A stretch of DNA of 63,678 nucleotides from Clostridiales bacterium (lineage in GTDB: Bacteria; Bacillota; Clostridia; Lachnospirales; Lachnospiraceae), in contig JAJQCD010000022.1 in NCBI GenBank assembly GCA_021202925.1, forward strand, positions 1 through 63,678, in the 5' to 3' direction. A program made the position numbers and the translations under genes. Positions within the stretch are counted from its first letter, which is position 1, and each line of letters opens with the position of its first letter. The notes below the pieces were generated by a model. The model searched no databases. It was given only the letters and a program-made list of their open reading frames with translations, and had not been told where the DNA came from. This document shows positions 5,262 to 55,280 of this stretch, piece after piece.

Positions 5262-6695
5262 ATGGAAAAGTTGCTTTATGATGTGGCGATCATCGGAGCC
5301 GGGGTAACCGGATGCTCCATCGCCAGGGAACTTTCGCGGTATGACCTGCGGGTCTGTGTTCTTGAAAAGGATGAGGATGTCTGTTCCGGAACATCCAAGG
5401 CGAACAGCGCCATTGTTCACGCAGGTCATGATGCGGAATCGGGATCCATGAAAGCGAGATTTAATGTGGAGGGAAGCCGGATGATGCCGGGGCTGGCGAA
5501 AGAACTGGATTTTGATTTTATACAGAATGGCTCGCTGGTCCTCTGTTTTGCCGATGTGGATCGACCGGCCCTGGAAGAGCTTTATGAAAAGGGAAAGAAA
5601 AATGGTGTGGAAGGTCTGACCATTCTGAGCGGAGAAGAGGTGCGTCGGCTGGAACCGAATGTGTCGGATCGGGTTGTGGCGGCGCTTTATGCACCGACGG
5701 GCGGAATTGTTTGTCCTTTTGGACTGACAATTGCGATGGCAGAGAATGCCTGTGACAATGGTGTGGAATTTCAATTTCTGACCAGGATTGAAGAAATCCG
5801 GAAAATGGAAGACGGATATGAACTGAAGACAAACCGGGGAACGGTAACAGCCAGGTGTGTCGTCAATGCGGCCGGCGTGTATGCGGACGCTTTTCACAAC
5901 ATGGTCAGTGGGAAAAAGATTCACATCACAGCGAGAAAAGGAGAATATTGCCTGCTGGATAAAGAGGCGGGTGCGCATGTAGGACACACGATCTTTCAGT
6001 TGCCGGGAAAGCTTGGCAAAGGTGTGCTGGTGACGCCCACGGTGCATGGAAATCTGTTGCTGGGACCGACTGCGAGAGACATCAATGACAAGGAAGGGAC
6101 CGATACGACCGCGGAGGATCTGGCGGAGGTTCAGGAGAAAGCGACGCTCAGCGTGAGAGGTATTCCATTCCGTCAGGTAATTACATCCTTTGTCGGCTTG
6201 CGCGCCCATGAGGACAGCGATGATTTTGTGGTCGGAGAGGCAGAGGATAGCGAGGGATTTTTCGATGCGGCGGGGATTGAGTCGCCGGGACTTTCCAGCG
6301 CTCCGGCGATCGGTGTGTATCTGGCCGGATTGATCGCGGAAAAAACGGAGGCGAAAGCGAAGAACGACTGGCATGGAAAACGAAAAGGGATTGTAAAACC
6401 AGGAGAGATGAGCCGGGAAGAACGGGCCGCGTTGATCCGGGAGCATCCGGAGTATGGATCCATCGTTTGCCGTTGCGAGGGAATCAGCGAAGGAGAAATC
6501 CGCGACGCGATTACCCGTACTCTGGGAGCGACGTCGTTAGATGGCATCAAACGTCGGGTGCGTCAGGGAATGGGACGCTGTCAGGCAGGATTCTGTACGC
6601 CAAGGGCAATGGAAATTCTTGCAAACGAACGAGGCATTCGAATGGAAGAAGTCTGCAAGAATGTACCCGGCTCGGAAATGCTGATAGGTGAATGA
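5262..6695 (+). CDS. glpO: FAD-dependent glycerol-3-phosphate dehydrogenase/oxidase with BFD-like [2Fe-2S] domain
   Basis: The chosen ATG (MEKLLYDVAIIGAG) has GGAGG 11 bases upstream, giving 477 residues. The N-terminus has the FAD-binding IIGAGVTGCS motif, and SGTSKANSAIVHAGHD is typical of the GlpD/GlpO/GlpA DAO family. After about residue 400 a C-terminal domain carries the cysteine set CRC...GRCQAGFC of BFD-like [2Fe-2S] domains. This architecture is found in clostridial GlpA-like proteins, which work with the neighbouring NAD(P)/FAD oxidoreductase and the DUF1667 protein. It probably oxidises glycerol-3-phosphate to dihydroxyacetone phosphate and passes electrons to those partners. The true electron acceptor is not shown by sequence, so GlpO is a convenience name; GlpA is equally defensible. 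Confidence 0.88.
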   Translation: MEKLLYDVAIIGAGVTGCSIARELSRYDLRVCVLEKDEDVCSGTSKANSAIVHAGHDAESGSMKARFNVEGSRMMPGLAKELDFDFIQNGSLVLCFADVDRPALEELYEKGKKNGVEGLTILSGEEVRRLEPNVSDRVVAALYAPTGGIVCPFGLTIAMAENACDNGVEFQFLTRIEEIRKMEDGYELKTNRGTVTARCVVNAAGVYADAFHNMVSGKKIHITARKGEYCLLDKEAGAHVGHTIFQLPGKLGKGVLVTPTVHGNLLLGPTARDINDKEGTDTTAEDLAEVQEKATLSVRGIPFRQVITSFVGLRAHEDSDDFVVGEAEDSEGFFDAAGIESPGLSSAPAIGVYLAGLIAEKTEAKAKNDWHGKRKGIVKPGEMSREERAALIREHPEYGSIVCRCEGISEGEIRDAITRTLGATSLDGIKRRVRQGMGRCQAGFCTPRAMEILANERGIRMEEVCKNVPGSEMLIGE

Positions 6696-6708
6696 GGAGG
6701 ATCAGGAC

Positions 6709-7974
6709 ATGGAAAAGCATGATATTGTGATTATTGGCGGAGGTCCGGCCGGTCTGGCTGCGGCCGTGGCGGCCAGAAAAGCTGGCATTCAGGATATCCT
6801 GATTCTGGAACGCGACAGCCGTCTTGGCGGCATTCTGAATCAGTGCATCCATAACGGTTTTGGTCTTCACACCTTTCGGGAGGAACTGACCGGTCCGGAA
6901 TACGCAAATCGTTATATCCGGATGGCAGAGGACGAAGGGATTCCTTACCGGCTGAATACGATGGTTGTGGATATCAACGAGAAAAAAGAAGTGACCTTTA
7001 TTAACCGGGAGGATGGGATGACAACCATTCAGGCTAAAACTGTGATTCTGGCGATGGGATGCCGGGAGCGTCCCAGAGGCGCATTGAATATCCCCGGATA
7101 TCGTCCGGCAGGAGTGTATTCTGCGGGAACGGCCCAGCGGCTGATGAATATAGAGGGTTTTCATGTCGGAAAAGAAGTTGTGATCCTGGGTTCCGGCGAT
7201 ATCGGACTGATCATGGCAAGACGAATGACCCTGGAAGGAGCAAAGGTAAAAGTGGTCGCGGAACTGATGCCCTATTCCGGCGGACTCAAACGAAATATTG
7301 TACAATGCCTGGATGATTATGGGATTCCGTTGAAACTGAGCCATACCGTCGTGGAAGTACATGGAAAGCAACGTGTGACGGGCGTTACAATCGCGGAAGT
7401 TGACGCCAACCGCAAACCGATCCCCGGAACAGAAGAATATTACAGCTGCGACACGCTTCTTCTCTCGGTCGGTCTTCTGCCGGAGAATGAACTGACAAAA
7501 GGCGCCGGCATAGAAATGAACCGTGTCACCTCCGGTCCAAATGTCAATGACCAGCTTGAGACCAGCATCGAGGGGGTCTTCGCCTGTGGAAATGTACTTC
7601 ATGTTCATGATCTGGTGGACTATGTGTCGGAGGAAGCAACACTTGCAGGAACGAATGCCGCTGCCTGTGTACGTCACTCCGAACACAAAACCCCTTCCCA
7701 TCCGGTTGTGCTTTCAGCGGGGGATGGCGTCCGCTATACGGTGCCGCAGACTATGGATATTGCAAATATGAACGACCAGGTTGTGGTTCGTTTCCGTGTA
7801 GCTGATGTATATCGGGATCGTTCCATCAGCATCTATTACGACGGCGTACGCGTGGCGCACCGAAAGAAAAAGGTGATGGCGCCTGGCGAGATGGAGCAGG
7901 TAATTCTGAAAAAAGAAGATCTGAACCGTTATAACGATCTGAAAGAGATTGTGATTGGCACGGAGGTAGAATGA
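6709..7974 (+). CDS. NAD(P)/FAD-dependent oxidoreductase of the glp operon (GlpB-like role)
   Basis: The protein has 421 residues. GAGGAGG lies just before the ATG at 6709. It carries a pyridine-nucleotide-disulfide oxidoreductase fold: N-terminal FAD motif IIGGGPAGLAAAVAA, ILERDSRLGGILNQCIHNGFG, a second dinucleotide fold VILGSGDIGLIMARRMT, and the FAD/NAD signature GVFACGNVLHVHDLVDYV. The gene sits between the glycerol-3-phosphate dehydrogenase and the DUF1667 gene, the usual clostridial order. The likely role is electron transfer from the dehydrogenase to NAD(P) or another carrier; this is inferred from context. It is separated from its neighbours by 13 and 1 bases. Confidence 0.85.
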   Translation: MEKHDIVIIGGGPAGLAAAVAARKAGIQDILILERDSRLGGILNQCIHNGFGLHTFREELTGPEYANRYIRMAEDEGIPYRLNTMVVDINEKKEVTFINREDGMTTIQAKTVILAMGCRERPRGALNIPGYRPAGVYSAGTAQRLMNIEGFHVGKEVVILGSGDIGLIMARRMTLEGAKVKVVAELMPYSGGLKRNIVQCLDDYGIPLKLSHTVVEVHGKQRVTGVTIAEVDANRKPIPGTEEYYSCDTLLLSVGLLPENELTKGAGIEMNRVTSGPNVNDQLETSIEGVFACGNVLHVHDLVDYVSEEATLAGTNAAACVRHSEHKTPSHPVVLSAGDGVRYTVPQTMDIANMNDQVVVRFRVADVYRDRSISIYYDGVRVAHRKKKVMAPGEMEQVILKKEDLNRYNDLKEIVIGTEVE

Positions 7975-23986: not shown

Positions 23987-25079
23987 CCGGATTGACCGGA
24001 CGATTGTGGAATTGTTTGAACAGAGAATGGCGGTCTGCGGTGAGGTGGCCGCGTCAAAGATCGCTTCCGGCAAGGCGGTGTACGACGCGGCGCGGGAGGA
24101 GCAGAAGCTGGACACGGTCGAACACCTGGCGCATGGAGATTTTAATCCGGCAGCGGTACGGGATTTGTTTACTCATATGATGTCCGTCAGCCGACATTAT
24201 CAGTACCGGCTTCTTGCCGAACACGGCGTAAAGCCGGGGCTCGGTTTTGAGAGGGTTGCCGGGCTGGATACGTCCGGCGCCAGGATTGTGTATCAGGGAG
24301 TGGAAGGCGCTTTCAGCCATGCGGCGTCGCTCAAGTATTTCGGCGACGATGCGGATTTGTATCATGTGGAGACCTTTGAGGCGGCCGTGCGGGAGGTAGA
24401 AGAGGGCCGTGCGGATTATGGTGTGCTTCCGATTGAAAATTCGTCGGCCGGAGCGGTTGTCGATATGTATGATCTGCTGAGCCGTTATCAGACTTATATT
24501 GTGGGAGAGATTTTTCTGCCGGTGAGCCATGCGCTTCTGGTGGGGCCGGATACCCGGCTGGAAGACATCCGGACCGTATATTCTCACCCACAGGCGCTGA
24601 TGCAGTGTTCTTCTTATCTGAACAGCCAGGGATGGAAGCAGGTCTCCTGTCTGAATACCGCCATGGCGGCCAAAAAGGTCCTGGAAGATGGGGACCGGAT
24701 GCAGGCGGCAGTGGCGAGTGAGATTGCCGGCAGGCTGTATGGTCTCTGTGCGTTAAAGACTTCGATACAGAACAGTCAGGGAAATACCACGCGTTTTGTG
24801 ATTCTGTCGAAGCGAGCGGTTTACTGCGAGGACGCGGGCCGCATCAGCATCAGTTTTGAAATTCCGCACCGGAGTGGTTCCCTGTACAACATTCTGGGGA
24901 ATTTTGTCTTCAATGGCGTCAATATGGCGCTGATTGAGTCGCGGCCGATTCCGGGCCGGAACTGGGAATACCGGTTCTTTGTAGATGTGGAGGGGAACCT
25001 GGATCAGGCGTCGGTTGTCAACGCATTGACGGGAATCGGTGAGACGGCGCAGAATCTGCGGATTTTGGGGAACTATTGA
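23955..25079 (+). CDS. pheA: Bifunctional chorismate mutase / prephenate dehydratase
   Basis: I chose ATG 23955 (MDLQECRRELDRIDRTIVELF), ten bases after GGAGG; 374 residues. Residues 1-85 are an AroQ-type chorismate mutase with the conserved Arg and Lys pattern. Residues about 100-280 are prephenate dehydratase (YQGVEGAFSHAAS, VLPIENSSAGAV, SHPQALMQCSSYL, NTTRFVIL). The C-terminus is an ACT domain with GSLYNIL and the phenylalanine-binding ESRP. It converts chorismate to phenylpyruvate and is expected to be feedback-inhibited by phenylalanine. It lies in a four-gene run with plsC, ppx and ppk1. Confidence 0.96.
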   Translation: MDLQECRRELDRIDRTIVELFEQRMAVCGEVAASKIASGKAVYDAAREEQKLDTVEHLAHGDFNPAAVRDLFTHMMSVSRHYQYRLLAEHGVKPGLGFERVAGLDTSGARIVYQGVEGAFSHAASLKYFGDDADLYHVETFEAAVREVEEGRADYGVLPIENSSAGAVVDMYDLLSRYQTYIVGEIFLPVSHALLVGPDTRLEDIRTVYSHPQALMQCSSYLNSQGWKQVSCLNTAMAAKKVLEDGDRMQAAVASEIAGRLYGLCALKTSIQNSQGNTTRFVILSKRAVYCEDAGRISISFEIPHRSGSLYNILGNFVFNGVNMALIESRPIPGRNWEYRFFVDVEGNLDQASVVNALTGIGETAQNLRILGNY

Positions 25080-25096
25080 AAAAGGAGGCAGGCGGT

Positions 25097-26656
25097 ATGA
25101 TACGCACATTTGCGGCGATCAATGTGGGTGCGTTTGAGCTGGCGCTGGGGATTTATGAGATATCGGACAAGAACCGGATCCGCCCGGTTGATTTCATCAA
25201 GCACATGATTGCCCTGGGAAGCGACACGTATTACGAAGGCAAGATCAGCTATCAGCTGGCGGAGGAATTGTGTGACGTCCTGGAGGATTTCTCCCGGATC
25301 ATGAAGGGCTACCAGGTGGATGATTACCGGGCCTATGCGACGAGTGCGCTGCGGGAGGCGCGCAACAGCCAGATCATCATCGAGCAGGTTCGTGTGCGCA
25401 CCGGGATTGAGATCCGGGTGATCAGTAATTCGGAGCAGCGGTTTTTAAGCTACAAGGCGGTGGCGGCCAGAGACGAGGAGTTTACCAATATTATCCAGCA
25501 GGGTACGGCTATTGTGGATATGGGCTTCGGAAGCCTGCAGATTTCGCTGTTTGACAAGGACTGCCTGGTGGCGACGCAGAATCTGCCCCTGGGAGCAGTC
25601 CCAATGAAGGAGACGCTGGCCCGGGCCCGTGTTTCCGTGGAAACGGAGCGGGCGCTTGCCCGGGAGATGGTGGATAATGAACTGGTTACCTTCCGGAAGA
25701 TGTATCTGAAGGACCGGGATATCCGCACGCTGATCGCGGTCGGGGAACCGATCATGATGCTTTATTCCAAGACAGAGGCGTGGAAACAGAGGTCGCCGTT
25801 GTCGCTCGAGGAGCTTGGCGTCGTGTTTGAACGGGTTCGCAGCATGACCAGAGAACAGATTGAGGATGCGTTTGACGTCAATGCGGACTACGCGGCGATG
25901 TTGATGCCGACGGCGGTAATTGTCCGGCGGCTTCTGGAGATTACCGGCGCAGAGAAGATCTGGGCGTCCAGAACCCGGCTGGTTGACGGCATTGCGGCAG
26001 AGTACGCGGAGGATAAAAAACTGCTGAAGCTGAATCATAACTTTGCCAATGATATCATCGTAACCTCCCGGAACCTGGCAAAGCGGTACAAATGCTATAT
26101 GCCGCATGTGCAGGCGGTGGAGGATGCGGCGTTGAAGATTTTTGATGCGCTGAAGAAGTATCACGGCATGAAGGCGCGGGAACGATTGCTTTTGCAGATC
26201 GCGGTCAATCTTCACTCCTGCGGGAAATTCGTGACCATGCGCTATGCGAATGACTGCGCGTACAATATCATCATGTCAACGGAGATCATCGGGTTGTCTC
26301 ATCTGGAGCGGGAGATCGTGGCGAATGTGGTGAAGTACCATGAACAGAAATTTGAATATGACGAGGTGGAGTTGTCGGCCAGCCCGACGCATGACCGGTT
26401 CCGGCAGTCGGAGGAGAGCGTGATCTTAAGAATTGCGAAACTGACCGCGATTCTGCGCCTGGCCAATTCCATGGACCGGAGCCATCTGCGCAAGCTTCAG
26501 GACGCCAGAGTTTCTCTGAAGGAGAATCAGCTGATGATTACGACCGGATATCCGGATGATCTGACCCTGGAGGCGATGTCGATCGCCGAAAAGGGAGATT
26601 TCTTTGAGGAAATATTCGGGGTGCGCCCCGTGCTGAAGCAGAAAAAGAGGGGATGA
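25097..26656 (+). CDS. ppx: Exopolyphosphatase / guanosine pentaphosphatase family protein (Ppx/GppA) with HD domain
   Basis: AAAGGAGGCAGG places the start at 25097 (MIRTFAAINVGAFELALGIYEI), giving 519 residues. The N-terminal half is the ASKHA Ppx/GppA fold (YATSALREARN, IVDMGFGSLQISLF). The C-terminal third is an HD-type helical domain (LLLQIAVNLHSCG..., VVKYHEQ). It probably hydrolyses polyphosphate or pppGpp. The usual DIGSNS phosphate motif is altered here to NVGAFE, so activity on the standard substrate is not certain. Immediate neighbourhood with ppk1, six bases downstream, supports a polyphosphate role. Confidence 0.86.
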   Translation: MIRTFAAINVGAFELALGIYEISDKNRIRPVDFIKHMIALGSDTYYEGKISYQLAEELCDVLEDFSRIMKGYQVDDYRAYATSALREARNSQIIIEQVRVRTGIEIRVISNSEQRFLSYKAVAARDEEFTNIIQQGTAIVDMGFGSLQISLFDKDCLVATQNLPLGAVPMKETLARARVSVETERALAREMVDNELVTFRKMYLKDRDIRTLIAVGEPIMMLYSKTEAWKQRSPLSLEELGVVFERVRSMTREQIEDAFDVNADYAAMLMPTAVIVRRLLEITGAEKIWASRTRLVDGIAAEYAEDKKLLKLNHNFANDIIVTSRNLAKRYKCYMPHVQAVEDAALKIFDALKKYHGMKARERLLLQIAVNLHSCGKFVTMRYANDCAYNIIMSTEIIGLSHLEREIVANVVKYHEQKFEYDEVELSASPTHDRFRQSEESVILRIAKLTAILRLANSMDRSHLRKLQDARVSLKENQLMITTGYPDDLTLEAMSIAEKGDFFEEIFGVRPVLKQKKRG

Positions 26657-26662
26657 TTGGAT

Positions 26663-28822
26663 ATGGCAGAGAATACGATGAATTTTGAAGATCCGAAGAA
26701 TTATGTCAATCGCGAGATGAGCTGGCTGGAGTTTGATTTTCGCATTCTGAATGAAGCGAGAGACAAGTCGATTCCACTGTTTGAGCGGCTGAAATTCCTG
26801 AGCATCACCGCATCGAACCTGGATGAGTTCTTTATGGTGCGCGTGGCGTCGCTGAAGGATCAGGTGCATGCAGGGTACAAAAAGCCGGATATTGCCGGGC
26901 TGCGTGCGGAGGAGCAGCTGACGCTGATAGGAGCCAGAACGCATGAACTGGTGAATCTGCAGTATTCGACCTATAACCGATCCCTGCTCCCGGCGTTGAA
27001 GCAGCAGGGACTGATTGTGGTGTGGGAACATGAGAATCTGACGGAGGACGAGGGAAGGTTTGTAGACCGCTATTTCCAGAAGGAGGTCTATCCGGTGTTA
27101 ACGCCCATGGCGGTGGATTCGTCCCGCCCGTTCCCGCTGATCCGCAACAAGACGTTAAATATCGCGGCGCTTGTGAAGAAAAAGGATGAAGAGGACGCGG
27201 ATCTGGAATTCGCAATGGTTCAGGTTCCTTCCGTACTGCCGCGTATCATCGAACTGCCGCGGGGGGAAAACGGAGAGCGCAAGGTGATCCTTCTGGAAGA
27301 GATCATGGAACGCAACATTCAGGATCTGTTCCTGAACTACAGAATTGTTTCGGCGCATCCGTTCCGCATCATGAGAAACGCGGATTTTGACATCGATGAG
27401 GAAGATGCGGAAGACTTGCTGGAGGAGATCCGCAAGAAACTGAAGAGACGGCAGTGGGGCGAGGTGATCCGCCTGGAAGTAGAAGAAAAGGTGGATAAGC
27501 GTCTGTTAAAGATCCTCAAGCGGGAACTGGAGGTGGAGGACGAGGCGATCTATGAGATCGACGGACCGCTGGATCTGACCTTCCTGATGAAGATGTATGG
27601 CCTGTCAGGCTTTGACCATCTGAAGGCGGCTCCTTATACGCCGCAGCCGGTTCCGGCGCTGATGAACGACGACGATATTTTTACCAATATTCGCAGGGGC
27701 GATATCCTGCTCCATCATCCGTACCAGACCTTTGATCCGGTGGTGGAACTGATTCAGAAGGCGGCGAAGGATCCGGATGTGCTGGCCATCAAACAGACGC
27801 TTTACCGCGTAAGCGGCCATTCGCCGATTGTAGCGGCGCTTGCGGAAGCAGCGGAGTCCGGCAAGCAGGTATCGGTGCTGGTCGAACTGAAAGCGCGTTT
27901 CGACGAGGAGAACAACATCATCTGGGCCCAAAAGCTGGAGAAGGCGGGTGCCCATGTCATCTATGGCCTGGTGGGTCTGAAGACGCACTGCAAGATTGCG
28001 CTGGTGGTTCGCCGGGAAGAGGATGGCATTCGCCGCTATGTCCATCTGGGAACCGGCAATTACAACGATTCCACGGCGAAGCTGTACACGGACTGCGGAA
28101 TGCTGACGTGTCATCCACAGTATGGCGAGGATGCGACGGCCGTGTTCAACATGCTGTCCGGCTATTCGGAACCGGCGACGTGGAACAAGCTGGTGGTGGC
28201 GCCGCTGTGGCTGAGAGGGCGCTGCCTGAAGATGATCCGCAGAGAGACGAGCCATGCGCGGGCCGGCAGAGAAGTGCATATTATGGCGAAGATGAATTCG
28301 CTTTGTGATAAGGAGATCATTGCAGCACTGTACGAGGCCTCGTGCGCGGGTGTGAAGATTGAGATGGTGATCCGCGGCATCTGCTGCCTGAAGGCAGGGG
28401 TTCCGGGGCTTTCCGAGAATATTCAGGTTCACTCGATCGTGGGCAACTTCCTTGAGCACGCCCGGATCCTTTATGTGGAGAATGACGGCAGCCCGGAGGT
28501 CTATATGGGCAGCGCCGACTGGATGCCGAGGAATCTGGATCGGCGTGTGGAGATCATGTTCCCGGTGGAGGACGAGACATTGAAGGAGCAGGTCATCCAT
28601 ATCCTGGAGGTCCAGTTGGCGGACAATGTGAAGGCGCATGTTCTGCAGCCGGACGGCACCTATGAGAAGATTGATAAGCGCGGCAAGACGCTGGTCCTGG
28701 CGCAGGATCAGTTCTGCGAAGAGGCGATTACGGCCGCGCAGGCCGCCCGAGGGAATGAGGACGTACACAACACCAGAGTCTTTATTCCGGCTGAGGCGGA
28801 GCCGGGGCGGACCGAGGGGTAA
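26663..28822 (+). CDS. ppk1: Polyphosphate kinase 1
   Basis: A 719-residue protein of standard length, start ATG 26663 after AGAGGGGA. It begins with YVNRELSWLEF-type sequence, has the N-terminal, head and two phospholipase D-like C-terminal domains. Histidines equivalent to the E. coli phospho-sites are His442 (GLKTHCKIAL, followed by HLGTGNYN) and His599 (NFLEHARILY). It polymerises ATP gamma-phosphate to polyphosphate reversibly. Adjacent ppx provides the opposing hydrolase. This is the last gene of the plsC-pheA-ppx-ppk1 run. Confidence 0.96.
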   Translation: MAENTMNFEDPKNYVNREMSWLEFDFRILNEARDKSIPLFERLKFLSITASNLDEFFMVRVASLKDQVHAGYKKPDIAGLRAEEQLTLIGARTHELVNLQYSTYNRSLLPALKQQGLIVVWEHENLTEDEGRFVDRYFQKEVYPVLTPMAVDSSRPFPLIRNKTLNIAALVKKKDEEDADLEFAMVQVPSVLPRIIELPRGENGERKVILLEEIMERNIQDLFLNYRIVSAHPFRIMRNADFDIDEEDAEDLLEEIRKKLKRRQWGEVIRLEVEEKVDKRLLKILKRELEVEDEAIYEIDGPLDLTFLMKMYGLSGFDHLKAAPYTPQPVPALMNDDDIFTNIRRGDILLHHPYQTFDPVVELIQKAAKDPDVLAIKQTLYRVSGHSPIVAALAEAAESGKQVSVLVELKARFDEENNIIWAQKLEKAGAHVIYGLVGLKTHCKIALVVRREEDGIRRYVHLGTGNYNDSTAKLYTDCGMLTCHPQYGEDATAVFNMLSGYSEPATWNKLVVAPLWLRGRCLKMIRRETSHARAGREVHIMAKMNSLCDKEIIAALYEASCAGVKIEMVIRGICCLKAGVPGLSENIQVHSIVGNFLEHARILYVENDGSPEVYMGSADWMPRNLDRRVEIMFPVEDETLKEQVIHILEVQLADNVKAHVLQPDGTYEKIDKRGKTLVLAQDQFCEEAITAAQAARGNEDVHNTRVFIPAEAEPGRTEG

Positions 28823-28908
28823 TTGCCGGAAAAAATTCCCATATTTGTATGAAAAAATTAAGGCATTTGGTGTCATTTTATGCTAAACTGAATACAAGGT
28901 GCGAAAAT

Positions 28909-28932
28909 AGGGGAAAGGCATATCTTTCCCCT
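28909..28932 (+). terminator. Hairpin between ppk1 and the response regulator gene
   Basis: A perfect nine-bp stem AGGGGAAAG / CTTTCCCCT with a six-base loop. Only TGTTTCAT follows, so it is either a weak terminator for the ppk1 operon or part of the leader of the next operon. Confidence 0.45.
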
Positions 28933-28992: not shown

Positions 28993-29697
28993 ATGGCGGA
29001 TATCAGTATACTGGTTGTGGATGACGAAAAGGAAATTGCTGATCTGGTAGAAATCTATCTGGTCAGTGACGGGTATCAGGTATTCAAGGCGTCAAGCGCC
29101 CAGGAGGGGCTTGCGATTCTGGAAAAGGAAGAGATACAGCTGGTGCTTCTGGACATTATGATGCCCGGAATGAATGGACTGGAAATGTGCAAGAAAATCC
29201 GTGAGACGAATAATATTCCGATCATCATGTTAAGCGCGAAATCGACGGATCTGGACAAGATTCTGGGCCTGGGTACCGGGGCGGATGATTATGTCGTGAA
29301 GCCGTTCAATCCACTGGAACTGACGGCACGGGTGAAGTCTCAGCTGAGGCGATATACACAGTTCAATCCAAACAGCAATCTTCATGAGAACGCACGCAAT
29401 GAGATCAGTATCCGGGGGTTGACGATCAACAAGGACAACCACAAAGTGACCGTATTCGATGAGGAAGTAAAGCTGACGCCGATTGAATTTGACATTCTGT
29501 ATCTGCTTGCCTCAAATCCGGGCAAGGTATTCAGTACCGATGAGATTTTTGAAAAGGTATGGAACGAGAAGGTTTATGAGGCGAATAACACGGTCATGGT
29601 ACATATTCGTCGTCTGCGCGGCAAGATGAAAGAGGACGAACGGCAGGACAAGATCATTACTACCGTCTGGGGGGTAGGATACAAAATTGAAAAATAA
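28993..29697 (+). CDS. OmpR/PhoB-family response regulator (VanR-like)
   Basis: A 234-residue protein with a GAGGAGG site. The receiver domain has the acidic VVDDEKE pocket, phospho-acceptor Asp54 (LLDIMMPG), a Ser/Thr-Ala SAK motif and KPFNPLEL. The C-terminal winged helix (LTPIEFDILYLLASNPGKVFSTDEIFEKVW...VHIRRLRGK) binds DNA. It opens a five-gene overlapping run with a histidine kinase, a large extracytoplasmic protein and an ABC transporter. It probably autoregulates this run; no direct-repeat operator was confidently seen. Confidence 0.93.
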   Translation: MADISILVVDDEKEIADLVEIYLVSDGYQVFKASSAQEGLAILEKEEIQLVLLDIMMPGMNGLEMCKKIRETNNIPIIMLSAKSTDLDKILGLGTGADDYVVKPFNPLELTARVKSQLRRYTQFNPNSNLHENARNEISIRGLTINKDNHKVTVFDEEVKLTPIEFDILYLLASNPGKVFSTDEIFEKVWNEKVYEANNTVMVHIRRLRGKMKEDERQDKIITTVWGVGYKIEK

Positions 29698-30832
29698 GGG
29701 CAGCAGCAGGAGTGATTTTTCCCATCGCTTTCATACCAGAGTGGTCGCCAACATCATTTACAGTGCGCTGGCTGCCTGTCTGGTGGAGGTGTTCCTGGTG
29801 GTCAACCTGGGCGTGCTGGCCGATTATGCCAGGACCGCTGAGTGGGACAATGCGCTTCTTTCCATGATATATCAGTCGAATGTCATCATCGTGCTGGGAT
29901 ATGTGCTGCTGGGAGTGATTGTATTTTCGGTGATCTTTCTTCTGCTTCAGGAGAAATCGGTCGCGTATATCAGCCGCATTTCAAAGGCGATGGAGAGCGT
30001 GTCAGAGGGTGATTTAAATACCAGCGTGGAGGTGATCGGCGACGACGAGTTTTCGTCCATGGCAGAGAATCTGAACAAGATGGTCGAGGATATTCGTAAG
30101 CTGATGGACAGGGAGCGGGAATCGGAGCGGACGAAAAACGAACTGATTACCAACGTAGCGCATGATCTGCGCACGCCGTTAACTTCCATCATCGGATATC
30201 TGGAACTGCTTTCCGGGAATGTGCGTCTGCCCGAGGAAATGCAGCGGAAGTACATAGAGATTGCCTACAGCAAATCGAAGCGTCTGGAGAAGCTGATTGA
30301 AGACCTTTTTGGTTTTACGAAGATGAATTATGGGAAGATTTCCATGCATATGGCGAAAGTGGACGTGGTGAAACTGCTCAGCCAGCTTCTGGAAGAGTTC
30401 TATCCCAATTTTGCGGATAAGGGTTTATCTTACGAACTGCAGAGCAACATCCCGGCGAAGACCATCACCGCTGACGGGAATCTGCTGGCGCGGCTGTTTG
30501 AGAATCTGATCAACAATGCGATTAAGTATGGGGCAGACGGCAAGCGCGTGCTGGTAAAAGTATTTGCGGAGGACGAGATTGTCCGGGTATCGGTGACCAA
30601 TTACGGATATGTGATTCCGGAGGAGGAACTGCCGTTGATCTTTGACAAGTTCTACCGGGTTGAGCGTTCCCGCTCGAGCAGCACCGGCGGAACCGGGCTG
30701 GGGCTGGCGATTGTGAAGAATATCGTCGATATGCACGGAGGAGACATTACGGTGAAGAGCGATTTGAACGGAACGGTATTTACGGTGACTCTGCAGGTGA
30801 ATTTTGATATCAATCGGGAGCATTTCGGATGA
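29687..30832 (+). CDS. Sensor histidine kinase with very short extracytoplasmic loop
   Basis: A 381-residue kinase whose TTG start overlaps the response regulator by 11 bases. Two membrane segments (about 15-36 and 57-78) are separated by only about 20 residues. A HAMP-like linker follows, then the H-box VAHDLRTPLTS (His159), N-box NLINNAIKYG, G-boxes and GGTGLGLAIV. The tiny loop is typical of intramembrane-sensing kinases such as BceS, which take their signal from an associated ABC transporter. That fits the ABC genes just downstream. Its stop overlaps the next start as ATGA. The kinase domain also resembles VanS, an alternative family assignment. Confidence 0.9.
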   Translation: MKNKGSSRSDFSHRFHTRVVANIIYSALAACLVEVFLVVNLGVLADYARTAEWDNALLSMIYQSNVIIVLGYVLLGVIVFSVIFLLLQEKSVAYISRISKAMESVSEGDLNTSVEVIGDDEFSSMAENLNKMVEDIRKLMDRERESERTKNELITNVAHDLRTPLTSIIGYLELLSGNVRLPEEMQRKYIEIAYSKSKRLEKLIEDLFGFTKMNYGKISMHMAKVDVVKLLSQLLEEFYPNFADKGLSYELQSNIPAKTITADGNLLARLFENLINNAIKYGADGKRVLVKVFAEDEIVRVSVTNYGYVIPEEELPLIFDKFYRVERSRSSSTGGTGLGLAIVKNIVDMHGGDITVKSDLNGTVFTVTLQVNFDINREHFG

Positions 30833-33369
30833 CGGACAGGACAGAGAAAGGCGGGGTGAAGACATTGAACGTCCGGATTCACAGATTCGCTTTGTGGTTG
30901 GATTGTGTCAGACTGTCGGGAAAAAGGATCGGCGGGATCCTGCTTCTTGGTGGTCTGGCTTTTTGCGCATTCGCTTTCCCGGTCTATGCGGGTACAGCGG
31001 ATACCGGAGCGGCGTCTCCATCCACTGCCGGAAATCAGCTGGCACAGGTCACCATGGATGTGGAGGTTGGCTACGATGATACGGCGAAGGGAGGGCGCTA
31101 TCTGCCGCTCACTGTTACGATTGGCAACCGGCGGGAACAGACGCTGGAAGCGGTTCTGCAGGTGAAGTCGGAGGAATCCGATCAGACTGTCGTGCAGTAT
31201 GAATATCCGATTGTGACGGAGGCCGGATCGGAATCAGAGAGCAGGTATTATATTCCGCTTGGGATTAATGCGAATAAGCTGTTTCTGACGCTGGCGGATC
31301 CATCCGGCAACGTGATTCTGAAGCAGACGGCCAGTCTGAAGGTGAGCCGTGATGTGCCGGAACTGTTTATTGGCATTTTGTCGGACCATCCGGAACGGCT
31401 GTTGTACCTGGATGGGGTTGGGATCCGCTACAGCACCCTTCGAAGCCGGACGTTTGAACTGGACGATGGCGATTTTCCGGAGGATGCAATCGGGCTGGAT
31501 CTGCTGGATGTGCTGGTGGTGAATGATTACAAGCTCAGGGATCTGTCGGAGATGCAGACGGCGGCGATCATGGATTGGGTCTACAGCGGCGGTGTGCTGA
31601 TCCTGGGGACGGGGGAACGGGTCGATGACACGCTGGGGCGCTTTGCGCCGGAGCTGCTCGATGATTCTTATGGGTCGCCAGGTTTGCGGCATATCAATCT
31701 GGGTGAAAATTACCGGCTGGAGAATGCGGGTGACGGCATGCTGGCGATCTCCTGTGTGGATATCCCTTTACATGGCGGCAATGTGGTCCTTTTGAGCAGC
31801 GGTGTGGCGCTTCTGACGGTGGCGGCCAAGGAGCAGGGACTGATTGCAGTCGCCGGATTTGATCTGGGAGATATCGCGGAGTTCTGCGAGGAGCATTCCG
31901 GTTATGTGGACCATATGTTTACCACGCTGATGGGAGAAAACCGGATCAATCAGCTGGCGGAACTGGTTTACAGCGGCAATTCATCCAAGTTCTGGTCGGT
32001 TCAGAGTCTGATTAACACCGGTGATGTGGAAAAGCTGCCCAATCTGGGTGCTTATGTGGCGGTTGTGCTGATCTATCTGATTCTTCTGGGACCGGGACTT
32101 TACCTGTTTCTGGCAGACCGGGAACTGCAGATTTATTATCGTCGCAGTGCGGCAGTGCTTGCGGTAATTTTTTCCGGAATTATTTATGTTATGGGTATAC
32201 CGACGCGGTTTCGGTCGACTTTTTTCACCTATGCGGCGGTTCAGGATGTCACGGATGATTACGTCACGGATACCACTTACGTCAATGTCCGTAATCCGTA
32301 TAACCAGCCATACACGGTTGCGTTTGCGCCGGATTATTCGATCCTGCCGATTACGCGCAGTACGGGTGACGCAGGGACGTCGGCGTTCAGTGAGGATGCG
32401 GACTGTCAGATCATCGTTACCTACGGAGAGAAGGAAACGCTCATTCAGGGACAGAATATCGCGGCCTTCGCACCGCGTTATTTTCAGCTTGAGCGCAAGC
32501 AGGAGAACGTTGACGGCATCGGACTTTCCGGTGAAGTGAATTACTTTGAAGGAAAGGTCAGCGGGTATCTGACGAACAATTTTCCGTATCCGCTGGAAAA
32601 TACGGCCCTGATTCTGTATGGAACCATGATGCAGATCGGGCGGATGGAGCCGGGAGAGACGAAGGATCTGAGTGAATTTGAACTGCTTCGTTTTCCGCTT
32701 GGCAATTCTTATGTGGTGGCGGATCGGATTTCCGGGGAGAGTGAGTATCGGATGACGGACATCAGCGACAGCCAGTATCTGCTGGCAATGGAGCGGTCGA
32801 ATATGCTGCGTTTTTATCTCGATACATATCTGAACGGGTATACGGCAGACGGGCGTGTGCTTGCGTTCAGCCTGGAAAAGGAGGAGACGCAGTTTCTGCA
32901 ATCGGATGCGGCGGAGACATATGGCCTGACGATGCTGACGGAACTGATCGCGGTCAATGCGTCTCAGAATTCGATGATTTATCGCTCTGCGTTGATGAAG
33001 ACGCCGCGCGTAATCACGGGATCCTATGATTCTGCGAACAATTCGATGAGCGGGGCAGAGCCGCTTGCTCTGGAATATCAGCTGGGGGAGGACATCGAGG
33101 TGGAGAGTCTGACCTTTGAGACGGTATCGGAGGTCTTTCTGGAGGGGGAGAATTACACGGAGGCATTTACGGGAAGCGTCTATTTTTATAACTACGCGAC
33201 CGGAAATTATGACCGTATGGATCCGATTGGAAAGACCATGAATGTGGAGGAACTGCAGTCCTTCCTGTCGCCGGCGAACACGCTGACGGTCCGCTATGTA
33301 TATGACGGGGGAGGAAATTACGGACAGATTCAGCTCCCGATGCCAATGGTTGCGGGGAGGGAAAAGTGA
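30829..33369 (+). CDS. Large membrane-anchored extracytoplasmic protein of unknown function, ABC-associated
   Basis: This 846-residue protein has no close family that I recognise. A signal/anchor segment lies at about residues 33-55. An outer domain includes a glutamine-amidotransferase/GldG-like stretch (LLDVLVVNDYKLRDLSEMQTAAIMDWVYSGGVLILGTG). Two membrane helices lie at about 405-427 and 440-456. A second outer domain of about 390 beta-rich residues runs to the C-terminus. The GATase-like fold without a catalytic Cys resembles the non-enzymatic ligand-binding domains of GldG-type ABC partners. The ATG overlaps the kinase stop; the stop overlaps the ATPase start. The role may be stimulus binding or substrate capture for the transporter; this is inference from gene order. 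Confidence 0.6.
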   Translation: MTDRTEKGGVKTLNVRIHRFALWLDCVRLSGKRIGGILLLGGLAFCAFAFPVYAGTADTGAASPSTAGNQLAQVTMDVEVGYDDTAKGGRYLPLTVTIGNRREQTLEAVLQVKSEESDQTVVQYEYPIVTEAGSESESRYYIPLGINANKLFLTLADPSGNVILKQTASLKVSRDVPELFIGILSDHPERLLYLDGVGIRYSTLRSRTFELDDGDFPEDAIGLDLLDVLVVNDYKLRDLSEMQTAAIMDWVYSGGVLILGTGERVDDTLGRFAPELLDDSYGSPGLRHINLGENYRLENAGDGMLAISCVDIPLHGGNVVLLSSGVALLTVAAKEQGLIAVAGFDLGDIAEFCEEHSGYVDHMFTTLMGENRINQLAELVYSGNSSKFWSVQSLINTGDVEKLPNLGAYVAVVLIYLILLGPGLYLFLADRELQIYYRRSAAVLAVIFSGIIYVMGIPTRFRSTFFTYAAVQDVTDDYVTDTTYVNVRNPYNQPYTVAFAPDYSILPITRSTGDAGTSAFSEDADCQIIVTYGEKETLIQGQNIAAFAPRYFQLERKQENVDGIGLSGEVNYFEGKVSGYLTNNFPYPLENTALILYGTMMQIGRMEPGETKDLSEFELLRFPLGNSYVVADRISGESEYRMTDISDSQYLLAMERSNMLRFYLDTYLNGYTADGRVLAFSLEKEETQFLQSDAAETYGLTMLTELIAVNASQNSMIYRSALMKTPRVITGSYDSANNSMSGAEPLALEYQLGEDIEVESLTFETVSEVFLEGENYTEAFTGSVYFYNYATGNYDRMDPIGKTMNVEELQSFLSPANTLTVRYVYDGGGNYGQIQLPMPMVAGREK

Positions 33370-34331
33370 TGCTGCGGCTCGAAAAGCTGAAAAAAACATT
33401 TGGAAATGATCACGCGCTGGATGGGCTGGATATGGAGATTGCCGACGGCTCTCTTTATGGTTTTGTGGGACCGAACGGAGCGGGAAAGACGACGACGATC
33501 CGGATCATAGCCGGTCTTCTGTCACCGGATGGCGGACGGCTGGAAATCGGCGGCTTCGACGCGGCTGACAGTCCGGCGCGGATAAAGAGACTGATCGGGT
33601 ATGTTCCGGATTATTTCGGCGTGTACGACAATCTGAAGGTCACGGAATACATGGAGTTCTTCGCGGCCTGTTATGGAATGGAGGGCTATAAGGCCCGCAG
33701 ACGGGCGGAGGTGCTGCTGGAGCAGGTGGGGCTGGGTGATAAGAGGGATTCTTTTGTGGATGAGCTTTCCCGGGGAATGAAACAGCGGTTAAGTCTGGCC
33801 CGTGCGCTGATTCATGATCCGCAGCTTCTGATCATGGATGAACCGACGGCGGGGCTGGATCCCCGCACCAGACTGGAATTCCGGGATATGGTGATGGGAC
33901 TGCATGAACAGGGCAAGACGATTCTCATCAGTTCGCATCTGCTGACGGATCTTTCTGAACTGTGTACGGATATTGGCATCATTGATGCCGGGAAGATGAC
34001 TTTAGAGGGAAGTGTCCGGGAAATTCTGGAGCGGATTTATACATCGAAACCTCTTGTGATCACAATACAGGACGATCTGACAACCGCCATGCGAATCCTG
34101 AAGGATGAGCCGCTCGTGCAGACGATTACCGTGAAGGGTTCTGACATTATGGTGGAGTTTGCCGGAGACAGCGGCCAGGAATGCGATCTGTTGAAACAGA
34201 TGATCGACAATGGGGTAAGGGTGCGTGGGTTTATGAGAGAGCAGGGAAGTCTGGAGACGGTCTTTATGCAGATTACGAGCGGCGAGAAAGAAAGGGTGGT
34301 GCTGTCCTATGAAACGGAATCCGATTTATAA
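33369..34331 (+). CDS. ABC transporter ATP-binding protein (ABC-2 type, GldA/CcmA-like)
   Basis: A 320-residue protein; ATG 33369 overlaps the previous stop (TGATG) with GGGAGGG upstream. Walker A GPNGAGKTT, Q-loop region, ABC signature variant LSRGMKQRLSLARAL, Walker B LLIMDEPTAGLD and the H-loop Ser-Ser-His (ISSHLLTDLSEL) are all present, so it should be active. A C-terminal extension of about 90 residues (KPLVITIQDDLTTAMRIL...) is typical of ABC-2 exporter subunits. It pairs with the permease encoded next, whose start lies 23 bases inside this gene. Confidence 0.92.
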   Translation: MLRLEKLKKTFGNDHALDGLDMEIADGSLYGFVGPNGAGKTTTIRIIAGLLSPDGGRLEIGGFDAADSPARIKRLIGYVPDYFGVYDNLKVTEYMEFFAACYGMEGYKARRRAEVLLEQVGLGDKRDSFVDELSRGMKQRLSLARALIHDPQLLIMDEPTAGLDPRTRLEFRDMVMGLHEQGKTILISSHLLTDLSELCTDIGIIDAGKMTLEGSVREILERIYTSKPLVITIQDDLTTAMRILKDEPLVQTITVKGSDIMVEFAGDSGQECDLLKQMIDNGVRVRGFMREQGSLETVFMQITSGEKERVVLSYETESDL

Positions 34332-35256
34332 AAGGGAAGCCATGGTCAGCGCAAGGAGCTTTCGGCTGGCGTTGGTGCTGATGATTTTCAGCGGCATCCT
34401 GGCGGTGGTGGCGCTTCTGAACATGTATTCGACATTGGCACAGGTACGCCTGACGGCTGAAATCCAGTATACGAGTTTTCTGGATCTGTTTTTGTTTATT
34501 ACGATTCTGGAGTTTGCGATGCTGGTGCTGATCATGCCGGCGATCACGGCGGGCAGCATCAGCGGGGAGCGGGAACGTCAGACACTGGAGCTGTTGATGA
34601 CGACGGAACTGACGCCGCATGAGATTGTGCAGGGGAAACTGATGGGGGCGCTCTCGACGATGGGACTTCTGGTTGCTTCCGGTTTTCCGATCCTGGGCAT
34701 TGTGTTTGTTTATGGTGGAGTGACCGTTCCGGATATTGGCCTGCTGATTCTCTGCTATATGGTGGCGGCGCTTTTCATGGGCAGTCTTGGAATTGCCTGT
34801 TCTGCCATATGCAGGAAGACCACGATGGCTACCGTCATGACATATGCGCTTCTTGGATTTCTTGTTCTCGGCACCTATGGTATCAATCAGTTCGTCTGGT
34901 ATCTAAACGGAATGCAGACAGACACATATCTGACAGCTGCCGGACAGGCAGCGGAGCAGGCGACGTCGGGAGGGTTTCTGTATTTGCTTCTGGCTAATCC
35001 GGCGTCGACCTTTTTGCTGGTGATTTCCGGAATGACCGGGCGGGAGCCGATCACGGAGGCCGTGACCAGCTGGTTTGGCAGTCGCAGCCAGAACTGGATT
35101 CTGACGGACTGGATTGGGATCAGCCTGTTGCTTCAGGTGGTGTGCGCGGCGCTTTTCTTCCGGGTTGCCGTGTGGGCGGTCAGGGTCAGAAAAACACCGG
35201 CCCGGAGGAAAAACCGAAAAAAGTTTACGGTTGCCGATGACAGGAAAATAGAGTAA
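34309..35256 (+). CDS. ABC-2 type permease
   Basis: A 315-residue membrane protein with about six hydrophobic segments and the ABC-2 signature region PAITAGSISGERERQTLELLMTTELTPHEIVQGK between the second and third. It resembles GldF/NosY-like permeases. Its start overlaps the ATPase by 23 bases, so one coupled unit encodes the transporter. Substrate is unknown. The basic C-terminal tail (RVRKTPARRKNRKK) is cytoplasmic. Confidence 0.9.
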   Translation: MKRNPIYKREAMVSARSFRLALVLMIFSGILAVVALLNMYSTLAQVRLTAEIQYTSFLDLFLFITILEFAMLVLIMPAITAGSISGERERQTLELLMTTELTPHEIVQGKLMGALSTMGLLVASGFPILGIVFVYGGVTVPDIGLLILCYMVAALFMGSLGIACSAICRKTTMATVMTYALLGFLVLGTYGINQFVWYLNGMQTDTYLTAAGQAAEQATSGGFLYLLLANPASTFLLVISGMTGREPITEAVTSWFGSRSQNWILTDWIGISLLLQVVCAALFFRVAVWAVRVRKTPARRKNRKKFTVADDRKIE

Positions 35257-54944: not shown

Positions 54945-55017
54945 GCGCCCTTAGCTCAGTTGGTAGAGCAGTAGACTCTTAATCTATTTGTCCAGGGTTC
55001 GAGTCCCTGAGGGCGCA
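54945..55017 (+). tRNA. tRNA-Lys(CTT), copy 1
   Basis: Complete cloverleaf: acceptor GCGCCCT/AGGGCGC, D-arm GCTC-AGTTGGTA-GAGC, anticodon stem GTAGA/TCTAT with loop CTCTTAA (anticodon CTT, Lys AAG), T-arm CAGGG-TTCGAGT-CCCTG, discriminator A. CCA is not encoded. Confidence 0.97.
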
Positions 55018-55207: not shown

Positions 55208-55280
55208 GCGCCCTTAGCTCAGTTGGTAGAGCAGTAGACTCTTAATCTATTTGTCCAGGGTTCGAGTCCCTGAGGGCGCA
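55208..55280 (+). tRNA. tRNA-Lys(CTT), copy 2
   Basis: Identical over all 73 bases to the copy at 54945-55017, with the same GGAA just upstream. It has its own promoter, so the two are separate units. Confidence 0.97.

Follow-up and report, generated by a model that had tools for sequence, protein, structure and literature searches.

The window, a 63,678-nucleotide stretch of a Lachnospiraceae genome (Clostridiales bacterium, GCA_021202925.1), contains a unit of five genes, a response regulator and a sensor kinase followed by a large outer protein (BIG) and an ABC-2 exporter. The kinase belongs specifically to this unit, as supported by its linkage to BIG in every family genome with its orthologue. 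Gene order, kinase-BIG linkage, a distribution implying an order of acquisition, a conserved promoter box and the same box at GT51 promoters were established by computation. Complex formation, the signal path, activation rather than repression, the direction of transport and any cargo belong to the proposed model, in which we read the unit as a variant of transporter-coupled envelope sensing.

Organization of the five-gene unit

The unit and its promoter comprise the following features:

28847..28889, + strand: promoter box of the operon promoter, a predicted regulator-binding direct repeat KTAWG-N6-KTAARG with extended -10, TGCTAAACT
28993..29697, + strand: RR, OmpR/VanR-type response regulator, 234 aa (PF00072 and PF00486)
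29687..30832, + strand: HK, sensor histidine kinase, 381 aa, TTG start (PF00672 HAMP, PF00512 HisKA, PF02518)
30829..33369, + strand: BIG, outer protein, 846 aa, without Pfam or NCBIfam match
33366..34331, + strand: ABC ATPase, 321 aa, start GTG 33366 or ATG 33369 (PF00005, 4.1e-31)
34309..35256, + strand: ABC-2 permease, 315 aa (PF12679, 1.3e-13)

All five ORFs of the unit lie on the + strand with zero gaps between them, and the overlap at every junction described by the first-pass annotation was confirmed. In gene order these overlaps are 11, 4, 4 or 1, and 23 nt, the third being 4 nt with the GTG start at 33366 and 1 nt, as annotated initially, with the ATG at 33369. The 11-nt RR/HK overlap is kept in 25 of the 42 loci having both genes (window included, first-start ORFs); at the other junctions overlaps differ between loci.

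RR is the most conserved of the five proteins (73-96% identity to 16 listed relatives). Its best NCBIfam model is vanR_ACDEGLN (323.8 bits, cut-off 350) and that of HK is VanS (309.2 bits, cut-off 400), a likeness to VanR/VanS; since both scores fall below the curated cut-offs, membership in VanRS was rejected. The window HK has two TM segments plus HAMP, and only 20 residues separate its hydrophobic cores (27-45 and 66-84), which bears out the small extramembrane part ascribed to it earlier. The sensor part of intramembrane-sensing kinases generally amounts to two TM helices joined by fewer than about 25 residues, a definition that includes the window HK. Over 42 full-length family kinases the core-to-core span is 19-92 residues; it is at most 32 residues in 28 of them and 35-92 in the other 14, and spans of the latter length could bind something.

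The permease has 8 hydrophobic segments with a longest gap of 35 residues and no large outer loop, and the FtsX family was absent among its Pfam matches at E<=0.1. With its ATPase, ABC-2 permease and membrane-anchored outer auxiliary protein the unit resembles GldA-GldF-GldG, the ABC system of Bacteroidota gliding/T9SS. Membership was nevertheless rejected, as the ATPase reached 225 bits against the GldA model (curated cut-off 402.6), the permease 32 bits against GldF (288.5), and BIG had no NCBIfam match. To our knowledge, no such kinase pair accompanies GldA-GldF-GldG.

BIG, a fast-changing outer protein

BIG is composed of a signal/TM segment (34-52), an Ig-like part (about 74-170), a flavodoxin/GATase-like part (about 175-370, a boundary that we infer), a TM hairpin (410-459, segments 410-428 and 441-459) and a C-terminal outer part (460-846). 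Because of the signal/TM segment and the hairpin topology, it is predicted to lie mostly outside the membrane.

Besides the lack of family matches, a PDB search with the window protein returned nothing at E<=0.1. Among 50 aligned BIG-type proteins (E<=0.01), DUF7408 matched 8 (best 1.3e-6), DUF4350 matched 7 (best 6.4e-5) and GATase1_like matched 1, the window protein being in none of these sets. The initial description of BIG as GATase-like therefore fits some relatives and finds no such match in the window protein itself. The word DUF7408 occurred in no paper of the literature searched. Structure prediction (AF2) and Foldseek on residues 66-385 gave an Ig-like domain only, and a whole-BIG model from two sequences had a pLDDT of 33. 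Profile matches of BIG to beta-galactosidases in the PDB were weak (best E 0.0092). The residues that are almost invariant in BIG, ten in all, are of the types G, L, W, Y and N; since Cys, His, Ser, Asp, Glu and Lys are all missing from them, an enzymatic role is not favoured. A coiled-coil protein, X500, was rejected as a BIG homologue (hhalign probability 0.9%); its own Pfam search gave no convincing match.

Linkage of the kinase to BIG

A kinase orthologue (E<=1e-60) was found in 43 of 150 family genomes and BIG adjoins it in 43/43, 42 of these coming from a comparison of kinase matches with loci and one more being G068; an orthologue without BIG occurred in none of the 150 at this threshold. 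In each of 16 BIG-bearing genomes, the highest-ranking kinase match was the one adjoining BIG. BIG-adjoining kinases of relatives share 42-81% identity with the window HK, per matched stretch, and the other kinase matches in BIG-bearing genomes 27-37% (E<=1e-40). Kinase distances over 38 loci correlated with those of the regulator (0.87), BIG (0.81), permease (0.68) and ATPase (0.40), values inflated by shared ancestry, so that among the transporter parts BIG tracks the kinase best.

These observations bear on the possible, though rather unlikely, explanation that the kinase perceives a small ligand or the membrane on its own and that BIG-ABC merely serves as its output, working as an export or resistance pump of the kind found in lantibiotic-immunity operons. 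It is common for an ABC-2 exporter to be nothing more than the output of a kinase encoded next to it. Up to 92 residues lie between the cores in kinases of the BIG unit, a lipid or the kinase's own helices could be sensed while the transporter is merely controlled, and the box at the operon promoter is compatible with plain autoregulation. However, in the 150 family genomes the orthologue (E<=1e-60) never occurred without BIG, and among the transporter parts its distances follow those of BIG best, whereas plain output pumps would usually be exchangeable.

Distribution and order of acquisition

RR and HK are present at 42 of 55 family loci, and 3 more have HK at a contig edge. The plain RR-HK-BIG-ABC order occurs at 34/55; counting loci that keep a MoxR half, the five-gene order is found at 39, the kinase pair and the MoxR half standing together at five. 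Pfam confirmed MoxR, DUF58 and BatA at two loci (L057 and L067). Among 60 sampled BIG loci outside the family, the exporter is followed by genes for MoxR, DUF58 and BatA in 33, some of the remaining loci being cut, and an adjacent RR-HK pair was seen in 0/60. MoxR and vWA genes are absent from the window operon. With both halves at five family loci and the pair at none of the 60 others, the kinase seems to have been added late to an older BIG exporter. A tree containing 114 BIG relatives also speaks for this order, though its support is moderate, its branches are long and it was rooted at the midpoint.

The expectation that a short-loop kinase would always neighbour BIG found no support, given the 60/60 sampled non-family loci without an adjacent pair and the 14/42 family kinases with at least 35 residues between the cores. 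Homologues mostly without the kinase, named by the first-pass annotation as counting against its reading, are indeed what is found phylum-wide, but not within the kinase-bearing lineage.

Of 17 uncut loci in the close clade, 10 have SPFH, zinc-ribbon and/or TPM genes behind the permease and on the same strand. Pfam identified TIM-barrel, SPFH, zinc-ribbon and TPM proteins at one such locus (L040) and the last three at another (L032), refuting the Tad277/CpaF/TadB/TadC identities considered for these neighbours. We equated them with YdjI, YdjG and YdjH by domain type. In this the loci resemble YdjGHI-PspA, an envelope-stress complex of B. subtilis (PMC8581546); the set is not behind the window unit, and a TPM protein was not found in the window's genome.

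Promoter box and candidate regulon

The window box is an 11-bp direct repeat with 0 mismatches to KTAWG-N6-KTAARG. The 260 nt upstream of the operon hold a copy with at most one mismatch at 24 of 42 loci, as against 0 of 2050 shuffles; in L031 a perfect copy lies further upstream than 260 nt, bringing the total to 25/42 leaders. Within 260 nt, 10 of the 42 leaders, L031 and the cut L047 included, have no box within 4 mismatches. Its recurrence in operon leaders implies autoregulation. The window leader also has a hairpin at 28910-28931.

A predicted box also lies upstream of GT51 (peptidoglycan glycosyltransferase) orthologues in four genera, with 1 mismatch in G033, G046, G114 and G119 and one extra base in G132, and lipoprotein gene promoters carry it as well. 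Of 21 intergenic non-operon boxes that are followed by a gene, 17 stand before one starting with a signal or TM segment; among control first genes, the operons' own regulators excluded, 12 of 59 start in this way (Fisher 1.4e-6, a post hoc comparison with a crude signal predictor and GT51 counted three times). An excess of boxes over background was not seen (67 in about 45 Mb of kinase-bearing genomes, 3 in 1.08 Mb of other families), and many of the individual sites may therefore have arisen by chance. A GT51 match was not found in the window's genome (E<=1e-45). As judged from these sites, the unit's regulator may control cell-envelope genes.

Comparison with known systems and proposed mechanism

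According to PMC3023708, Bce-type kinases have a 3-11-residue loop between two TM and Bce-type permeases exactly 10 TM with a 197-213-residue outer loop; the window kinase (20 residues) and permease (8 segments, no loop of roughly 200 residues) lie outside both. The Bce-type hallmark seen at first stands for a kinase with little outside the membrane, dedicated to an ABC unit, and fails on these two defining features; the idea of envelope sensing is supported by the promoter box at envelope genes. By comparison with PMC3023708 and PMC10314905, both kinds of module inherit together an RR, a HAMP kinase with a short outer part and an ABC transporter, the outer part being the least conserved element; unlike in Bce modules, the outer domain of the BIG unit is a separate protein and its kinase looks late-added.

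The arCOG01314 (DUF4350) complex, a predicted archaeal secretion or membrane-remodelling complex (PMC5898192), shares with the BIG unit a large outer protein with a GldG/flavodoxin-like domain and Ig-like parts and, with BIG relatives, an adjoining MoxR ATPase and VWA protein. It differs in that BIG is directly followed by an ABC-2 ATPase and permease and has a C-terminal outer half after the TM hairpin, and in that the window unit has the kinase pair in place of MoxR/VWA.

We give about an even chance to a self-regulating envelope-surveillance system, in which the kinase reads the BIG-ABC complex and the regulator couples exporter supply and wall-building. BIG, ATPase and permease would form an ABC-2 complex whose large outer subunit, with Ig-like and GldG/DUF4350-like domains, would engage a substrate or wall-facing structure. 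The kinase, almost without outer part, would read the state of this complex via membrane helices. The regulator would bind the 11-bp repeat where it overlaps the -35 region, both at its own promoter and at those of envelope genes (glycosyltransferase, lipoproteins), and would, probably by activation rather than repression, increase the supply of exporter in step with wall-building. On this view the exporter would predate the kinase pair, as part of a BIG-ABC-MoxR-DUF58-BatA machine; the pair would have joined within the window's family, the MoxR half being mostly lost afterwards.

It is improbable that BIG-ABC is instead a secretion or surface-assembly machine of the archaeal/bacterial GldG-MoxR-vWA type, its amount tuned to growth by the kinase without stress sensing. 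The MoxR, DUF58 and BatA/VWA neighbours in relatives match the complex predicted in PMC5898192, but the window lacks the MoxR/VWA half, the plain RR-HK-BIG-ABC order prevails at 34 of 55 family loci, and the box is present at GT51 and lipoprotein promoters. A chance packing of genes without joint function, conceivable in that RR, HK and ABC genes are abundant in bacteria and overlaps common in their operons, can be dismissed given the conserved five-gene order (34 family loci, 39 with MoxR-half keepers), the shared promoter box and the one orthologous kinase.

Beyond the surveillance reading, we tentatively propose a distinct transporter-coupled two-component class, in which a pre-existing GldG/DUF4350-type ABC machine captured a kinase, the separate, fast-evolving BIG senses in place of the Bce permease loop, and the regulator couples peptidoglycan glycosyltransferase and lipoprotein genes to the supply of the exporter. 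If true, this would show how an ABC machine of earlier origin captures a sensor kinase, the five loci with both halves being living intermediates. The conserved promoter box would make the regulon of a widespread system testable, and the unit would offer a way into the function of DUF7408/DUF4350-like outer proteins and of the phylum-wide MoxR-DUF58-BatA-ABC operon.

The five-gene unit and its outer protein

The fully overlapping layout proposed in the first-pass annotation was borne out, with successive overlaps of 11 nt (RR/HK), 4 nt (HK/BIG), 4 or 1 nt depending on the start codon (BIG/ATPase) and 23 nt (ATPase/permease):

28993-29697, + strand, response regulator (RR), first gene of the unit
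29687-30832, + strand, sensor kinase (HK), with HAMP, HisKA and HATPase domains after two hydrophobic cores
30829-33369, + strand, 846-residue outer protein (BIG)
33366-34331, + strand, ABC ATPase
34309-35256, + strand, permease, last gene of the unit

BIG, alone among the five, had no Pfam or NCBIfam match at E≤0.1, and no PDB match at this threshold (nearest two at 0.22 and 0.35). A single BIG match was present in the window's genome (3.17 Mb, 39 contigs searched). The protein had been guessed to be GATase-like, which fits the domain matches of some relatives, though the window protein itself gave no such match. Among 50 aligned BIG proteins, window protein included, 8 matched DUF7408 (best 1.3e-6), 7 matched DUF4350 (best 6.4e-5) and one GATase1_like at E≤0.01, the window protein matching none of these; eight further families were each matched by one protein. 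The archaeal DUF4350 family is reported to resemble both GldG and the trimerisation domain of beta-galactosidase (PMC5898192). The BIG profile itself matched beta-galactosidases weakly (best E 0.0092). An AF2 model built from two sequences, poor overall, shows a beta sandwich at about residues 74-170; its Foldseek matches include glycosidases and transglutaminases, in their Ig-like parts. The near-invariant BIG residues are not of catalytic type. We infer that BIG binds something or serves as a scaffold.

Distribution and gene neighbourhoods

BIG was found in 52 of 150 family genomes, own genome included, by single-sequence search. The 50-row profile (E≤0.001) matched 58/196, 48/291 and 52/299 genomes in order-, class- and phylum-level draws, respectively. 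These draws include the window's genome and part of its family, and some of the matches are short pieces.

We compared 55 family loci (the window, L031, the single-sequence-search loci and one from a profile search) with 60 from other families, 20 regions each from the order, class and phylum matches. L031 was assumed to belong to the family by closeness; L082 was left out because no BIG was found there, and L096 was counted twice because it carries two BIG genes. These lie ~1.9 kb apart, the first without an ABC pair directly behind.

RR and HK precede BIG in 42 of the 55 family loci: 34 are plain RR-HK-BIG-ABC, 5 also carry X500-MoxR-DUF58, mostly with BatA, and 3 are cut by contig ends. HK alone, at a contig edge, occurs in three loci and the kinase is absent from ten. 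Whether BIG homologues always neighbour a short-loop kinase had been proposed as a check; no adjacent RR-HK pair was observed in the 60 other-family loci, two of which have an HK without RR 1.5-1.9 kb upstream. The complete X500-MoxR-DUF58-BatA set is present in 33 of the 60. Pfam confirmation of MoxR, DUF58 and BatA/VWA_2 covers L057 and L067, the labels elsewhere coming from HMMs built from similar members.

In many families the gene between those for the permease and MoxR encodes X500 (A4; e.g. L057:11088-12587), a membrane protein with glycine repeats and a likely coiled coil that gave no convincing Pfam match. A separate MoxR and DUF58 pair lies away from the unit in the window's genome (L187 5676-7858, G000:C18). 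Near the operon end, proteins of 909-922 aa (L098:1450-4215, L103:1099-3828, L107:14974-17700) have a short stretch in common with the BIG profile and perhaps carry the same GATase-like domain.

Ppx and Ppk lie directly upstream of the window unit (25076-28822), a Ppk label being upstream in 14/55 family loci. Of the 17 uncut close-clade loci, window included, 10 have same-strand genes labelled SPFH, zinc-ribbon or TPM behind the permease (Pfam-confirmed in L040 and L032; zinc-ribbon alone in L042). By domain type these genes are reminiscent of B. subtilis YdjI, YdjG and YdjH, of which YdjG is a zinc-ribbon and YdjH a TPM protein. The three Ydj proteins recruit PspA to the membrane (PMC8581546). 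No TPM protein was found in the window's genome. Two tRNA-Lys(CTT) genes lie close together at 54945-55017 and 55208-55280.

Linkage and likely acquisition of the kinase

A kinase search at E≤1e-60 matched 43 of 150 family genomes; 42 of the matches sit at BIG loci already known and the last, in G068, adjoins a diverged BIG. The best match was the BIG-adjacent kinase in all 16 BIG-bearing genomes examined. BIG-adjacent kinases of relatives are 42-81% identical, versus 27-37% for the other kinase matches listed. Over 38 complete loci, mean pairwise identities were 70% (RR), 48% (ATPase), 45% (HK), 33% (permease) and 23% (BIG); the regulator is therefore conserved and the outer protein the fastest-changing. 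HK distances correlated with those of RR (0.87), BIG (0.81), permease (0.68) and ATPase (0.40).

The window HK has hydrophobic cores at 27-45 and 66-84, separated by 20 residues. Among 42 full-length kinases, the separation is at most 32 residues in 28 and at least 35 in 14, including all 5 from loci that also carry the MoxR half, so that the short loop may be the derived condition. The L032 kinase (about 5731-7078, G149) is split into two overlapping ORFs, and therefore a frameshift or assembly error is present there.

On a midpoint-rooted 114-row BIG tree from a quick IQ-TREE run with SH-aLRT support, which has many long branches and raised warnings on composition, kinase-bearing rows group among the family rows, the main clade with moderate support (90), and the kinase label requires 6 changes. 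Kinase-less L052, L053 and L122 fall within that clade. In the simplest reading of tree and distribution together, the kinase would have been captured once or a few times in the family and the MoxR half later lost from most units; several gains and losses may be the alternative history.

A predicted promoter box and a candidate regulon

A predicted box lies upstream of RR:

28847-28889, KTAWG-N6-KTAARG-N17-TGNTANNNT

Its spacing and place over the -35 would fit an OmpR-family activator site. In the 42 operon upstream regions (260 nt each), it occurs without mismatch in 18 and with one in 6, compared to 0 of 2050 shuffled sequences at ≤1 mismatch. It is missing within 4 mismatches from 10, including the cut L047 and L031, the latter having a perfect copy farther upstream. 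The pattern was drawn by eye from the operon leaders, which are therefore not an independent test; the distant family members L054, L059, L063, L072 and L075, not used in drawing it, have the box. A hairpin (GGGGAAAG...CTTTCCCC, 28910-28931) between box and RR start, with a similar one in L031, is a possible attenuator.

Twelve kinase-bearing genomes contain 67 sites at ≤1 mismatch, versus 17 for the reversed pattern. With 3 sites in 1.08 Mb from other families, this total is not above background, which is evidence against a large regulon. The nature of the genes behind the box is evidence for a regulon. Among 66 sites with examined contexts (those inside ORFs of 200 codons or more set aside as non-intergenic), 21 are intergenic, outside the operon and followed by a gene; a further 4 intergenic sites had no recognised gene behind them. 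A signal or TM start was present in 17 of the 21 genes and 6 were lipoprotein-like, versus 12/59 and 2/59 for control first genes of family loci preceded by an extended -10, and 39/152 and 4/152 when all loci are taken.

Three of the 21 encode GT51, a peptidoglycan glycosyltransferase (PF00912 for the L225 product), with orthologues in 6/16 kinase-bearing versus 1/16 kinase-less genomes. The box precedes the GT51 gene at 1 mismatch in G033, G046, G114 and G119, with one extra base in G132 and only at 4 mismatches in G338; kinase-less G003 has none within 2 mismatches. The window's genome has one further site, at 1 mismatch (G000:C4:35148), 30 nt upstream of a gene for a putative lipoprotein.

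Comparison with Bce modules

Bce kinases have a 3-11-residue loop and their permeases 10 TM and a 197-213-residue loop (PMC3023708), the kinase being HAMP-bearing and bound to the transporter (PMC10314905). The window unit differs in its 20 residues between kinase cores and in its permease, which is not of this 10-TM, long-loop type. No description of this unit was found among the open-licence PMC papers listed. The unit, whose sensing mechanism is an inference, is real and conserved, its evolution and promoter box being more interesting than its overlaps; it may function in the manner of Bce modules although it is not one of them.
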